This document shows positions 46,989 to 50,920 of a stretch of DNA of 64,000 nt, piece by piece. Positions within the stretch are counted from its first letter, which is position 1. Each line of letters opens with the position of its first letter. The notes below the pieces were generated by a model that was not told where the DNA came from, searched no databases, and was given only the letters and a program-made list of their open reading frames with translations. Source of the stretch: Agromyces lapidis (lineage in GTDB: Bacteria > Actinomycetota > Actinomycetes > Actinomycetales > Microbacteriaceae); assembly GCF_009749405.1 (NCBI RefSeq), contig NZ_WBIQ01000002.1, positions 372,001-436,000 on the forward strand, in the 5' to 3' direction. The position numbers and the translations under genes are program-made.

Positions 46989-47046
46989 GTTCCCGAGACT
47001 AAGCCAGTCCGTCGCCGCCGCGAAATCGAGGACCCCCGACGGATCG

Positions 47047-47073
47047 GGAACCTCGATGGGGCATCCGGACATA
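47047..47073 (+). promoter_or_regulatory. ECF-type promoter A, upstream of the sigma-factor gene
   Basis: GGAAC at 47047-47051, 13 bases, CCGGACATA at 47065-47073. It points towards the sigma factor at 47137 and leaves a leader of about 55-60 bases. The same two boxes at the same spacing recur at 48956-48982 and 48991-49017, which supports autoregulation. Confidence 0.8.
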
Positions 47074-47136
47074 ACACTGCATGGCCACTCTCACGAATCC
47101 GCGATCGGCGGGTCGCCCGGTTAGGCTGGGCCGACC

Positions 47137-47772
47137 ATGGGCGAAGACGGGCGGACCGATGCAGCGCTCTGGCTCGAGGCGACCTCGGGCACAGAGGCGT
47201 CGTTCGGCGTGGTCTTCGACCGCTACCGCGCGCGCATCTTCCGTCGCGCCTACGCGCAGGTGCGCCACGTCCCCGACGCGGAGGACATCGTGGCTGTGGT
47301 GTTCCTCGAGGCCTGGCGACGTCGCAAAGACGTGCGCTTCGTCGACGGCTCGCTGCTGCCGTGGCTGCTCATCGTGACCACCAACGTGACCCTCAACACC
47401 CAGCGCGCCGCGCGGCGGCACAAGCGGCTCCTCGCGGCCATCCCCGCCGCCCCGCACGCCGTCGATCCCGGGCACGAGATCGAGGAGCGCCTCGACGGAG
47501 GTCTCCTCACGGGCCGCCTGCAGGAGGCGCTGCAACGGCTGAACCCGGCCGAGCGCCGCGTGGTCGAGCTGTGCTTCATCGAAGAGCTGCCGCTCGCCGA
47601 CGCGGCGGCCGCGCTCGACGTGCCGCTCGGCTCGGTCAAGTCGCGGCTGTCCCGCGCCCGCCGCAAGCTGCAGGCCGAACTCGGCGACTCGGCGTGGCCC
47701 GGAGAACGGCAGACGAGCGAGGCGCCGGAGCGAAGCGGGCGCGCCCCCGACGGCCTGGAGGTGATCGGATGA
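47137..47772 (+). CDS. ECF-type RNA polymerase sigma factor
   Basis: 211 residues from ATG 47137. Region 2 at about 20-85 (FDRYRARIFRRAYAQVRHVPDAEDIVAVVFLEAWRR with the DAED motif) and region 4 at about 125-185 (LQRLNPAERRVVELCFIEELPLADAAAALDVPLGSVKSRLSRARRKL). A Ser/Gly/Glu tail of about 25 residues follows. It overlaps the next gene by four bases (ATGA), the usual arrangement for an anti-sigma partner. It is preceded by a promoter of the type it probably recognises. Confidence 0.92.
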   Translation: MGEDGRTDAALWLEATSGTEASFGVVFDRYRARIFRRAYAQVRHVPDAEDIVAVVFLEAWRRRKDVRFVDGSLLPWLLIVTTNVTLNTQRAARRHKRLLAAIPAAPHAVDPGHEIEERLDGGLLTGRLQEALQRLNPAERRVVELCFIEELPLADAAAALDVPLGSVKSRLSRARRKLQAELGDSAWPGERQTSEAPERSGRAPDGLEVIG

Positions 47773-48266
47773 CCGGCCCCGAGATGCGCCCCGAGCGCGC
47801 CGACGCGATCCGGGCGATGCTCGTCGAGCATGCACGCACCGAGCCGGCCGTGCGCGTGCGACGACGTCGCAACCGCGTCATCGGCTGGGGCGGCCTCGGC
47901 GTGCTCGCGGTCGGCGTTGCGGCGACCGCTGGCACGATGCTGCTCGCCCCCGGTCCCGTGACCGAGAACGGGTTCGTGCAGTGCCTGAGCGAACCGAGTC
48001 GCAATCCCGACGGCACCTACCCGGGTTCGGGTGCGGCGGTCGCCGAGGGCAGTGGCCTGCCGACCGATCCGATCGAGCTGTGCACGCTGATGTGGGAGCA
48101 GGGCCTCTTCGAGCCCGACTTCGACCCCCTCGCCATGACCAACCCGCCGGGCCGGGTGCCCGACGAGCTGCAGCTCTGCGTCATGGCCGACGGCGCGGCC
48201 GCGGTGGTGCCGTCGCCCAACGAGTCGATCTGCGCCGCGCTGGGCATGGCGCCAGCGACGGACTGA
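47769..48266 (+). CDS. Single-pass membrane protein, putative anti-sigma partner
   Basis: 165 residues from ATG 47769, coupled to the sigma gene. A short cytoplasmic N-terminus (about 35 residues, rich in Arg and acidic residues), one helix (GWGGLGVLAVGVAATAGTMLLA) and an outer domain with four Cys (VQCLSE, ELCTLMW, LQLCVMA, SICAALG) likely in two disulfides. There is no zinc-type anti-sigma motif. The role is inferred only from position and topology. Confidence 0.65.
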   Translation: MTGPEMRPERADAIRAMLVEHARTEPAVRVRRRRNRVIGWGGLGVLAVGVAATAGTMLLAPGPVTENGFVQCLSEPSRNPDGTYPGSGAAVAEGSGLPTDPIELCTLMWEQGLFEPDFDPLAMTNPPGRVPDELQLCVMADGAAAVVPSPNESICAALGMAPATD

Positions 48267-48293
48267 GCGCGGCCGGGCCGACGCCCGCCGGCG

Positions 48294-48902
48294 TTACCCG
48301 ACCGAGCCGGTCGGCCGGAAGACGAGCGACCTGACCCGGTCGTTGAGGCCGCCGAGGCTGCTGCAGTACGGCATGCAGTTCACGCGTGCACCGCTGTAGC
48401 TCGTGGCGGCGTAGGCGGTCGCCCAGCACCCGCTGAGGCCCGTGAGCGAGCTCACCGAGGTGCTCCAGCTCGAGGAGAGCGACGGGAAGCCGAAGCTTGC
48501 GCCCGCGCAGCCGCTCGACCCCCAGAACGTCAGGCTCGAGCCGCCCTTGTCGGCGTCCTTGTAGATGCGCCCGACCGCGATCGAGGCCGTCGCGGCCAAC
48601 CGCGAGTCGGCCGCGGCGACCGAGCGGCGCTCGAGGTATCGCTCGACCTCCTCGATGGACGAGAAGCAGATGGGCTCGGGCGCCTCGAGGCCGAGCTCCT
48701 CGGCCGAGGCCGCGACGCCGATGTCGAGCGCGCAGTGCTCCTCGGCCGCGGCCGGGGCGAGAACCGACCGCTCGATCGAGGCGGAGCCCGTGGCCCGGAC
48801 CTCGGCCGGGGTCTCGGCGCTCGCGGGTATCGCCGGAGCGAGCGCTCCGGTGCTCAGGGCGAGTGCGGCGGCGGCGGTCATGACGGCACGGCGGATCGGC
48901 AT
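48294..48902 (-). CDS. Secreted beta/gamma-crystallin-like protein (peptidase-inhibitor I36 type)
   Basis: 202 residues from ATG 48902. The signal peptide ends near IPASA. After an acidic spacer, the C-terminal 90 residues (IYKDADKGGSSLTFWG, CAGASFGFPSLSSSWSTSVSS, YSGARVNCMPYCSSLGGLNDRVRSL) look like the Greek-key crystallin or metalloproteinase-inhibitor fold, with about four Cys. Its promoter C (48956-48982) matches that of the ECF sigma gene. It could protect the envelope or inhibit proteases; this is inference. Confidence 0.75.
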   Translation of the reverse strand: MPIRRAVMTAAAALALSTGALAPAIPASAETPAEVRATGSASIERSVLAPAAAEEHCALDIGVAASAEELGLEAPEPICFSSIEEVERYLERRSVAAADSRLAATASIAVGRIYKDADKGGSSLTFWGSSGCAGASFGFPSLSSSWSTSVSSLTGLSGCWATAYAATSYSGARVNCMPYCSSLGGLNDRVRSLVFRPTGSVG

Positions 48903-48955
48903 GGAAGGCTCCCTCGGGTCGGATGTGCGCCGTCTCGGAAGACGGGTCGAACAGA

Positions 48956-48982
48956 TATGTCCGGATGCCAGAAGAAAGTTCC
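48956..48982 (-). promoter_or_regulatory. ECF-type promoter C, facing the crystallin-like gene
   Basis: On the minus strand: GGAAC (48982-48978), 13 bases, CCGGACATA (48964-48956). It leaves a leader of about 45-50 bases to ATG 48902. Same boxes and spacing as sites A and B. Confidence 0.8.
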
Positions 48983-48990
48983 GCGAATCG

Positions 48991-49017
48991 GGAACCTTTT
49001 CCGCGCACCCGGACATA
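48991..49017 (+). promoter_or_regulatory. ECF-type promoter B, facing the 38-residue peptide gene
   Basis: GGAAC at 48991-48995, 13 bases, CCGGACATA at 49009-49017. Back to back with site C, eight bases apart. Leader of about 20 bases to ATG 49044, including a purine-rich ribosome-binding site. Confidence 0.8.
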
Positions 49018-49043
49018 CCTGTGATGAGGGAAGGGGAGTGGCG

Positions 49044-49160
49044 ATGCGACGCACGAAGGCGACGGCCACCGCGCTGCTGGCGTTCGCCGCCGCGGCGATG
49101 GTCGCATTGGCGACGGTCGTCGGCGGAGAGATCGGCCGCGCGGTCATGCTGAGCGGCTGA
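49044..49160 (+). CDS. 38-residue hydrophobic peptide
   Basis: Open frame ATG 49044 to TGA 49160: MRRTKATATALLAFAAAAM followed by VALATVVGGEIGRAVMLSG. A basic start and one hydrophobic stretch make it a membrane peptide or a bare signal-like peptide. Ribosome-binding site GGAAGGGGAG lies just upstream, and promoter B directs transcription to it. No family recognised. Confidence 0.55.
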   Translation: MRRTKATATALLAFAAAAMVALATVVGGEIGRAVMLSG

Positions 49161-49257: not shown

Positions 49258-49298
49258 GCAACGGGGCCCGTGGAGTCGAACTCCACGGGCCCCGTTGC
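49258..49298. terminator. 19-bp perfect terminator stem
   Basis: Arms 49258-49276 and 49280-49298 pair perfectly around loop CGA. It lies downstream of the 38-residue peptide gene on the plus strand and of the DEAD-box helicase on the minus strand; the longest perfect stem in the window. Confidence 0.85.
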
Positions 49299-49312: not shown

Positions 49313-50920
49313 TCAGCCCTGCGCGCGCCGATTGCTGCGCGTGTTGCGCGACGGCGAGACGAGGCTGCCCACCCGGATCGGCTGCTTGGCGCCGCCGCGC
49401 GAGCTGCTGCTGCGCTGGGCGCCGGTGGTCTGGCTGCCCCGGCTCTGCCCCGAGCCCTGCTTGGGCGCGTTCGACTTGGTCTCGGCGGGTCGGCCCGAGC
49501 GGTCGCGGCGCGGGGCGCCCGCCGAGACATCCGACTGGCCGGAGCGGCCGCGCCCGCGGCCGCCCTGCGACTGGCCCTGGCGTTCGCTGCCCTGACCCTC
49601 GCGGGCCGCGCGCTTGCCCTGCGACTGGCCCTGGCGTTCGCTGCCCTGACCCTCGCGGGCCGCGCGCTTGCGCTGGGCGTTCGCGCCCTGCGAGCGGCCG
49701 CCGCCCTGCTGCGGCGCAGCCGCGCGGGGAGCGGGCTTCACGTACGGTGCGACGTCGCCGACGAGCTTCACGACCTCGGGGGTGGTGGGCACGGCGGGCG
49801 ACGGGGTCACGGTGATGGCCGCCTTGCGGAGCAGCTGCTTGAGGTCCTGGAGCTGGCCGGGCATCGCGATCGTCACGACGTCGCCCTCGCTGCCGGCGCG
49901 GGCCGTGCGGCCCGAGCGGTGCAGGTACGCCTTGTGCTCCATGGGCGGGTCCACGTGCACCACGAGCTCGATGTCGTCGACGTGGACGCCGCGGGCTGCG
50001 ACATCCGTCGCGACCATGACCTTGGCCGAGCCGTCGGCGAACGCCGCGAGGTTGCGGTCGCGCTGCGGCTGCGAGAGGTTGCCGTGCAGGTCGACGGCGG
50101 GGATGCCCTGCTCGGTGAGCTTCTTCGCGAGCTTCTTCGCGTGGTGCTTCGTGCGCATGAAGAGGATGCGGCGGCCCATGCCGCTCGCGAGCGTCTTCAC
50201 GAGCTCGAACTTCGTGTCGGCGTCCTCGGTGAGGAAGACGTGGTGGGTCATCGCGGCGACGGGCGAGTTGGCCTCGTCGACCGAGTGCAGCACCTCGTTC
50301 TCGAGGTAGCGCTTCACGAGCTTGTCGACCCCGTTGTCGAGGGTCGCCGAGAACAGCAGGCGCTGCCCGCCGCGCGGGGTCTTGTCGAGGATGCGGGTGA
50401 CCACGGGGAGGAATCCGAGGTCGGCCATGTGGTCGGCTTCGTCGAGCACGGTGATCTCGACGGCGTCGAGGTGCACGAAGCCCTGCTTCATGAGGTCCTC
50501 GAGGCGGCCGGGCGCCGCGACGACGATGTCGACGCCGGCTCGCAGCGCCTCGACCTGGCGCTTCTGGTTGATGCCGCCGAAGATCGTGGTGACCTTGAGG
50601 CCGTACGCCTCGGCGAGCGGCTCGATGGTGCGGGCGATCTGGGTGACGAGCTCGCGGGTCGGGGCGAGCACGAGGCCGAGCGGCCGGCCGGCGCGGCGCT
50701 GGCCGCCAGCGAGGGTGGTGCCGAGGCGCGCGACCATGGGCAGCGCGAAGGCGATGGTCTTGCCCGAGCCGGTCTTGCCGCGGCCGAGCACGTCGCGTCC
50801 GGCGAGGGTGTCGGGCAGGGAGTCGGCCTGGATGGGGGTGGGGACGGTCTTGCCGTCGGCCGTCAGGACCGCCACGAGGGGGGCGGGCACGCCGAGCGTT
50901 GCGAAGGTGATGTCGGTCAC
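49313..50920 (-). CDS. DEAD-box RNA helicase with an RGG-like tail
   Basis: 535 residues from ATG 50920. Q motif and Walker A GRGKTGSGKT, motif Ia PTRELV, DEAD motif VLDEADHMADLG, motif III SAT, and the second RecA domain with VATDVAARGVHVD and HRSGRTARAG. The C-terminal 130 residues are low-complexity and rich in Arg/Gly/Gln/Ser (RGRGRSGQS), including a perfect 18-residue duplication (KRAAREGQGSERQGQSQG). Such tails bind RNA and favour condensates. A likely cold- or stress-related RNA helicase. Confidence 0.93.
   Translation of the reverse strand: MTDITFATLGVPAPLVAVLTADGKTVPTPIQADSLPDTLAGRDVLGRGKTGSGKTIAFALPMVARLGTTLAGGQRRAGRPLGLVLAPTRELVTQIARTIEPLAEAYGLKVTTIFGGINQKRQVEALRAGVDIVVAAPGRLEDLMKQGFVHLDAVEITVLDEADHMADLGFLPVVTRILDKTPRGGQRLLFSATLDNGVDKLVKRYLENEVLHSVDEANSPVAAMTHHVFLTEDADTKFELVKTLASGMGRRILFMRTKHHAKKLAKKLTEQGIPAVDLHGNLSQPQRDRNLAAFADGSAKVMVATDVAARGVHVDDIELVVHVDPPMEHKAYLHRSGRTARAGSEGDVVTIAMPGQLQDLKQLLRKAAITVTPSPAVPTTPEVVKLVGDVAPYVKPAPRAAAPQQGGGRSQGANAQRKRAAREGQGSERQGQSQGKRAAREGQGSERQGQSQGGRGRGRSGQSDVSAGAPRRDRSGRPAETKSNAPKQGSGQSRGSQTTGAQRSSSSRGGAKQPIRVGSLVSPSRNTRSNRRAQG
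49563..49670 (-). repeat. Perfect 54-bp tandem duplication in the helicase tail
   Basis: 49563-49616 and 49617-49670 are identical. 54 bp is 18 codons, so the frame is kept and the RNA-binding tail is lengthened. The absence of a single difference suggests a recent event. Confidence 0.9.

Follow-up and report, generated by a model that had tools for sequence, protein, structure and literature searches.

A probable autoregulated ECF sigma factor module with a conserved two-box promoter in Agromyces

We describe a gene module of Agromyces that is very probably an autoregulated ECF sigma module, in which the sigma factor would read three sites in the analysed DNA (a 64-kb stretch, here termed the window) and a membrane protein, asf, would restrain the sigma factor. 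The three sites are conserved, directional and composed of two boxes, and in the genus sample they are found only with this sigma factor or a relative of it. Judged from the sequence, they appear to be real ECF promoters with the window's sigma factor as their likeliest reader, because the copies of the motif are few, intergenic and gene-directed, because the motif is rare in the phylum, and because it co-occurs with the sigma gene. The layout of sigma factor, partner and autoregulation is the textbook ECF plan. The regulon is larger than the three genes of the original prediction and is ordinary in plan but new in membership.

A pattern scan of the whole window returned exactly three matches to GGAAC-N13-CCGGACATA, and 100 dinucleotide shuffles of the window returned none. 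The positions, strands and 13-bp spacing of the sites are those originally predicted, as are the back-to-back layout of the second and third sites and the downstream genes, namely an ECF sigma gene at 47137, a gene for a secreted protein and a 38-codon ORF. Promoter 1 (47047..47073, plus strand) lies ahead of the sigma gene (47137..47772, plus strand, 211 aa), with the end of its -10 box 63 nt before the ATG. The gene for asf (47769..48266, plus strand, 165 aa) has an ATGA overlap with the sigma gene. Promoter 2 (48956..48982, minus strand) is situated ahead of sec (48294..48902, minus strand), which encodes a secreted protein of 202 aa with a small N-terminal domain and a betagamma-crystallin domain. 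Promoter 3 (48991..49017, plus strand) precedes pep (49044..49160, plus strand), a gene for a 38-aa peptide that would be 40 aa long if translated from an alternative GTG at 49038. Between pep and a convergent helicase gene, a perfect 19-bp inverted repeat with a 3-base loop was read in the sequence (49258..49298, no strand assigned) and is likely to be a two-way terminator. The tail of the DEAD-box helicase gene contains a near-identical direct repeat, with KRAAREGQGSERQGQSQ occurring twice (window 49560-49680).

The sigma factor has sigma2 (residues 27-94; Pfam Sigma70_r2, 8.5e-8) and sigma4 (residues 127-178; Sigma70_r4_2, 5.4e-16) as its only domains within 211 aa, as is expected of ECF (group 4) proteins. 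It scores 67.4 bits against TIGR02937 (cut-off 42.9) and, at 79.9 bits, lies below the curated cut-off of 141.55 for SigE-fam_strep (TIGR02983). A -35 element containing AAC, another ECF characteristic, is present as GGAAC at the three window sites and at the corresponding sites of relatives. The -10 element of the three window sites, CGGACAT, is not of the CGT type, a feature that the relevant passage of PMC8103513 assigns to an early definition of ECF factors and treats as no longer defining.

Inspected by eye, asf comprises an arginine-rich cytoplasmic segment of ~38 aa, one transmembrane segment (about 40-60) and an ectodomain, in which four cysteines (C72, C105, C137 and C155) are invariant in an alignment of 19 homologues. 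We consider asf a probable anti-sigma factor. The original prediction that the membrane protein is the regulator is favored by its overlapping operon partnership, its one hydrophobic segment and an orphan copy that persisted after loss of a sigma gene (see below), and it is weakened by low family scores. NCBIfam antisigma matches were obtained for 5/19 asf homologues (best 5e-4) and a Pfam CnrY match for one of the 19 (E=0.03), while structure searches with asf gave no fold match and its predicted structure contains one low-confidence helix (8-42). Class I anti-sigma factors have a cytoplasmic domain of more than 50 residues, with a zinc motif in many members. The window asf has no Pfam match, and its cytoplasmic part, at ~38 residues by eye and devoid of cysteine, falls short of a class I domain. 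It is rather unlikely, in our estimation, that asf is instead a co-expressed envelope protein or sensor, with the sigma factor governed by its amount only; the shortness of the cytoplasmic part and the lack of an anti-sigma domain above threshold in asf would suit such a role, but the ATGA overlap, the position of asf beside the sigma gene in 19 of the 20 Agromyces regions taken around sigma matches, and a sigma-type site ahead of asf alone in several genera, as with rshA in Corynebacterium, all argue against it.

A whole-genome scan of the window's own Agromyces genome (3.80 Mb), in which the window occupies C6:372001-436000, found five exact copies of the motif and one copy with a single mismatch, against a composition-based expectation of 0.02 exact copies per genome at 70% GC. 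All six copies are intergenic and aimed at a gene start, according to gene calls made in this analysis, and the motif is not scattered inside genes across the genome, an outcome that the original prediction had named as evidence against itself. One of the exact sites outside the window (C8:28793) is ahead of a LuxR-type response-regulator gene (GerE, 2.7e-14), and the other (C11:281849) is ahead of a 32-codon ORF and a lipoprotein gene (lipoprotein label by eye). The one-mismatch site (C9:231002) precedes a gene for a beta-lactamase-fold lipoprotein (2.9e-38; lipoprotein by eye). Because two exact sites sit elsewhere in the genome, the regulon cannot be called self-contained, as had been proposed. 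Among 296 Actinomycetota genomes drawn across the phylum, the window's own included, the exact motif was present in only one of the 295 others, as one copy.

The 32-codon ORF, with the conserved end PID[FL][ST]AYLPDPADEP, is found behind the motif in three genomes (L005 1600-1698, L013 and L018); it has no signal peptide by eye, and a lipoprotein gene comes after it in two of the three. In G049 (locus L031), the exact motif stands before a gene (MOSC domain by eye) whose orthologue sits just upstream of the response-regulator site in the window's genome (L004), such that the site seems to have shifted past a single gene.

The exact motif occurs in 12 of 60 genomes of the genus Agromyces, and a reversed-pattern control occurs in none of them. 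With sigma matches defined by E<1e-50, a cut-off chosen afterwards, the motif is carried by 12/17 sigma-positive genomes vs 0/43 others (Fisher p=4.4e-9; this and the next two p values are uncorrected for relatedness among genomes). At the search's own cut-off of E<=1e-20, the figures are 12/33 sigma-positive genomes and 0/27 others (p=3e-4). One motif genome (G017, locus L014) has the most distant sigma factor, an exact motif without a clear gene behind it, and a sigma region without a recognizable partner or sec; when it is dropped, the E<1e-50 comparison gives p=1.6e-8. The exact motif is absent from five of the 17 sigma-positive genomes. In G019 all three places carry one-base variants, in G053 such a variant is seen at sec alone, and the forms in G044, G046 and G047 are diverged. 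Comparative genomics supports the originally predicted control of all three genes by the sigma factor, through the tracking of motif and sigma gene over 60 genomes and the recurrence of all three promoters beside the same genes.

It is very unlikely that the sites are ECF promoters read by another ECF sigma factor, for instance one divergent from the C11 site. The genome did give 30 loose first-look sigma candidates, and the C11 site has a distant sigma relative next to it (26% identity, 5e-11), but this second gene did not turn up in the 3-kb loci that hold the same peptide site in G016 and G049, and the motif tracks the window's sigma factor in 12/12 motif genomes.

The module around the sigma factor is preserved in close relatives. 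Sigma gene, asf and promoters are all kept in 12 loci (L065-L076), with a site ahead of the sigma gene in all 12 (exact or a one-base variant; one with N14) and a site at the place of the pep promoter in all 12, though one of them (L072) has no pep behind it. That locus alone lacks both sec and pep, and one former site is left there. The DEAD-box helicase gene adjoins the module in 12/12 of these loci, and a GNAT gene lies within the region in 11/12. Between corresponding N13 sites, the -35 boxes are 96-100% and the -10 boxes 90-98% identical, whereas the spacers are 35-55% and the flanks 38-51% identical (11/12 sigma, 10/11 sec and 12/12 pep sites compared, N13 only); the box identity is partly a product of construction because most sites were located by a motif scan allowing up to two mismatches. 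A fairer test of box conservation comes from the sec genes, where a GGACAT box with AAC 14-15 nt ahead was present before 22/22 genes with readable upstream sequence, whatever their clade (L095 and L096, at contig ends, and the L082 fragment left out). The fixed N13 spacer of the original prediction holds at most sites and is too narrow as a rule, since orthologous sites also have spacers of 14 (sigma site of L069) and 12 (sec site of L073). The last base of the motif is A, T or C among orthologous sites.

Outside Agromyces, the trio of sigma gene, asf and sec is present in all eight loci found: three in two Microbacterium genomes and the others in Cryobacterium, Rathayibacter, Frigoribacterium, Pseudoclavibacter and one unclassified member of the Microbacteriaceae. 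These eight were found through asf and hence do not count towards the adjacency of sigma gene and asf. Overall, asf was detected in 14/299 Microbacteriaceae genomes, belonging to 10/85 genera. In one Agromyces locus (L079 of G046), four GGAACC sites with a 12-bp spacer and (C/T)CGGACAT occur within 4 kb around the module (3149, 6155, 6503 and 7145), and the ORFs downstream of them look secreted or membrane-bound by eye.

Least likely of the alternatives, and highly improbable, is that the motif is an ordinary transcription factor site of which the neighboring sigma gene is merely one target: a conserved 27-bp site before co-regulated genes would look alike for a transcription factor, but this site is asymmetric and gene-directed, begins with a GGAAC box, has a spacer of 12-14 bp that is free to change, was found in the genus sample only with this sigma factor or a relative, and is matched in a sister sigma clade by that clade's own -35 variant.

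The loci of Agromyces clade 1 have the site upstream of the sigma gene; it is there in 12/12 close loci, and the sigma factor may be positively autoregulated. Six of the eight non-Agromyces loci (two of the six being copies in one genome) have a GAACC-N14-GGACATA site within the final codons of the sigma gene and upstream of asf. All six internal sites use the Ile codon ATA, which makes up 37/394 Ile codons in the long frames of five such loci; coding constraint may also explain the internal site because the protein is itself conserved there (R-T...D-I). In 6/27 loci (L077, L082, L098, L099, L103 and L104), a site adjoins the sigma gene but points away from it.

Shine-Dalgarno medians over 18 loci are -5.0 kcal/mol (weak) for the sigma gene vs -12.9 kcal/mol (strong) for asf, the latter figure covering 18 of the 19 homologues, with L079 left out. 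Given this difference, promoter 1 should make proportionally more partner than sigma factor. A TANNNT box, TAGGCT (47122..47127, plus strand), is located 9 nt before the sigma start codon and is a putative housekeeping -10 element; no -35 element was identified for it. A TANNNT box within 5-10 nt of the start, at 6-9 nt before it, is present in 18/20 sigma genes, against a background of 109/8500 (1.3%) ATG/GTG positions in the same loci. We infer leaderless or near-leaderless basal synthesis of the sigma factor from TAGGCT, together with partner-biased induced synthesis.

In the mechanism that we propose, a low basal amount of sigma factor would be made from the housekeeping promoter TAGGCT on a leaderless message, and asf, with its one transmembrane segment, would hold the sigma factor by the short cytoplasmic segment and sense an outside cue through an ectodomain presumably stabilized by disulfides. 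RNA polymerase with the released sigma factor would read GGAAC as the -35 and CGGACAT as the -10 element, turning on the sigma factor's own operon, sec and pep along with a handful of envelope and regulatory genes elsewhere in the genome. The proportionally larger supply of partner from promoter 1 would then shut the response down. Covering or protecting the cell surface would be the probable task of the secreted products.

The sec protein has a signal peptide by eye, and its family profile matches Protein S (E=1.8e-4) and clostrillin (E=9.5e-4). A clostrillin mutant is its best Foldseek match (E=2.7e-4, TM 0.74 by target), and the sec model has pLDDT >80 in 7/11 ten-residue blocks from residue 101 on. 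These profile and structure matches place sec in the betagamma-crystallin fold and bear out its earlier description as crystallin-like. The calcium-binding N/D-N/D pairs of crystallins are partly lost in sec (by eye). Two cysteines are invariant in the small N-terminal domain. The Pfam Inhibitor_I36 model matches 13/16 sec homologues at E<=0.1 (best 2.7e-6), with the window sec below its gathering score (14.5 vs 21.1 bits). The peptide encoded by pep has one hydrophobic segment (by eye). Homologues of pep were found in 12 of the 20 regions searched; its Shine-Dalgarno sequence is strong (median -10.3 kcal/mol, 11 homologues), and its dN/dS of 0.3-1.2 is weakly below 1.

A sister clade of four sigma factors (support 99/96) comes with TGCAACC-N14-GGACAT, which occurs in 6/60 Agromyces genomes, all four sister-sigma genomes included (p=3e-5); a reversed TGCAACC control occurs in 0/60. 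The two genomes with TGCAACC sites and no sister sigma are G057 and G026, the latter having a relic locus in which a broken sec and two TGCAACC promoters are found beside transposase-like ORFs (by eye) at the place expected for sigma gene and asf. Both sigma genes are present in G024, G045 and G019. Outside Agromyces, 5/6 readable sec promoters are of the TGAACC form and one (L103) is GGAACC; TGAACC sites are also seen within Agromyces, in L077 and L078. The -35 forms TGAACC, TGCAACC and GGAACC accompany a constant GGACAT, and therefore the -10 is fixed and the -35 varies. The emphasis is opposite in a review passage on ECF sigma factors (PMC4598750), where the -10 is said to be the more diverged element. 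A recurrent secreted family (motif like GVDQATQD...GE.W.SF, by eye) is found behind sister-clade or TGAACC promoters (L110, L112, L113/L126 and L098), and no Pfam or NCBIfam match was obtained in the three copies scanned (L110, L112 and L098).

An R to K change in the recognition helix is found in the TGCAACC clade and also in Frigoribacterium (L103), where the sites are GGAACC; the change alone thus does not explain the -35 switch. The window's genome has lost the sister sigma factor: asf2 stands alone at C11:162996-163490 (L125), with the last codons of that sigma gene ahead of it, and no TGCAACC site is present in that genome. This sigma remnant lies in a stretch whose beginning, in addition, resembles a sec signal peptide (by eye).

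We put forward only tentatively, as a reading that may well not hold, that the module was duplicated, lost and rewired within one family, with sister copies insulated by the -35 only, the -10 frozen and the feedback site mobile. With this site at times heading the operon (sigma gene plus partner) and at times embedded in the sigma gene (partner only), the same parts would then switch between self-amplifying and purely self-limiting wiring. If true, separation by the -35 only would be the reverse of the usual view of ECF specificity as resting mainly on the -10. The genomes with both sigma genes (G019, G024 and G045) would hold candidate insulated sigma-promoter pairs differing mainly at the -35, of use in following the divergence of ECF specificity in duplicated sigma factors and in building orthogonal switches for Gram-positive hosts.

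The sharply defined promoter, with five exact sites in 3.8 Mb, makes for a testable regulon, and the module offers a conserved, uncharacterized partner protein and a secreted crystallin-fold target that could give access to the physiology of bacterial betagamma-crystallins. The matches listed from the open-licence literature included no ECF regulon of Agromyces or Microbacteriaceae, which is no proof of absence, and a literature search on the two boxes gave, by title, none on this promoter among the matches listed.

Autoregulated operons of an ECF sigma factor and a membrane anti-sigma factor in general (RpoE/RseA and SigW/RsiW type) share with the module a sigma factor of sigma2 and sigma4, an AAC-type -35 element, an overlapping gene for a membrane partner and a promoter before their own operon. 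The module differs from them in its -10 element, CGGACAT instead of the CGT type covered in the pertinent section of PMC8103513. It differs also in asf, which has no recognizable class I domain. RshA is a soluble zinc anti-sigma factor. In the C. glutamicum SigH/RshA system, as related in the corresponding part of PMC3489674, the sigma factor is made from housekeeping promoters and the anti-sigma gene alone is under a sigma-dependent promoter. Partner-only feedback of this kind, for which SigH/RshA is an experimental precedent, is likewise suggested by the internal sites of Microbacterium, Rathayibacter and Cryobacterium. In contrast to SigH/RshA, asf is membrane-bound and the promoter of Agromyces clade 1 sits before the sigma gene; in the window, too, promoter 1 lies upstream of the sigma gene and does not serve the partner alone.

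Class II (CnrY-like) anti-sigma factors wrap the sigma factor with a short two-helix cytoplasmic segment. CnrY itself is described, in the passages of PMC7406223 and PMC4598750 concerned with it, as having a very short cytoplasmic segment followed by one transmembrane segment. This resembles the short cytoplasmic segment and single transmembrane segment of asf, but the asf ectodomain is unrelated to that of CnrY by the searches run, and the single Pfam CnrY match among the 19 homologues sets asf further apart. Finally, sec has the fold and family signal of clostrillin, Protein S and Inhibitor_I36 and is distinguished from them by its extra N-terminal domain with two invariant cysteines.
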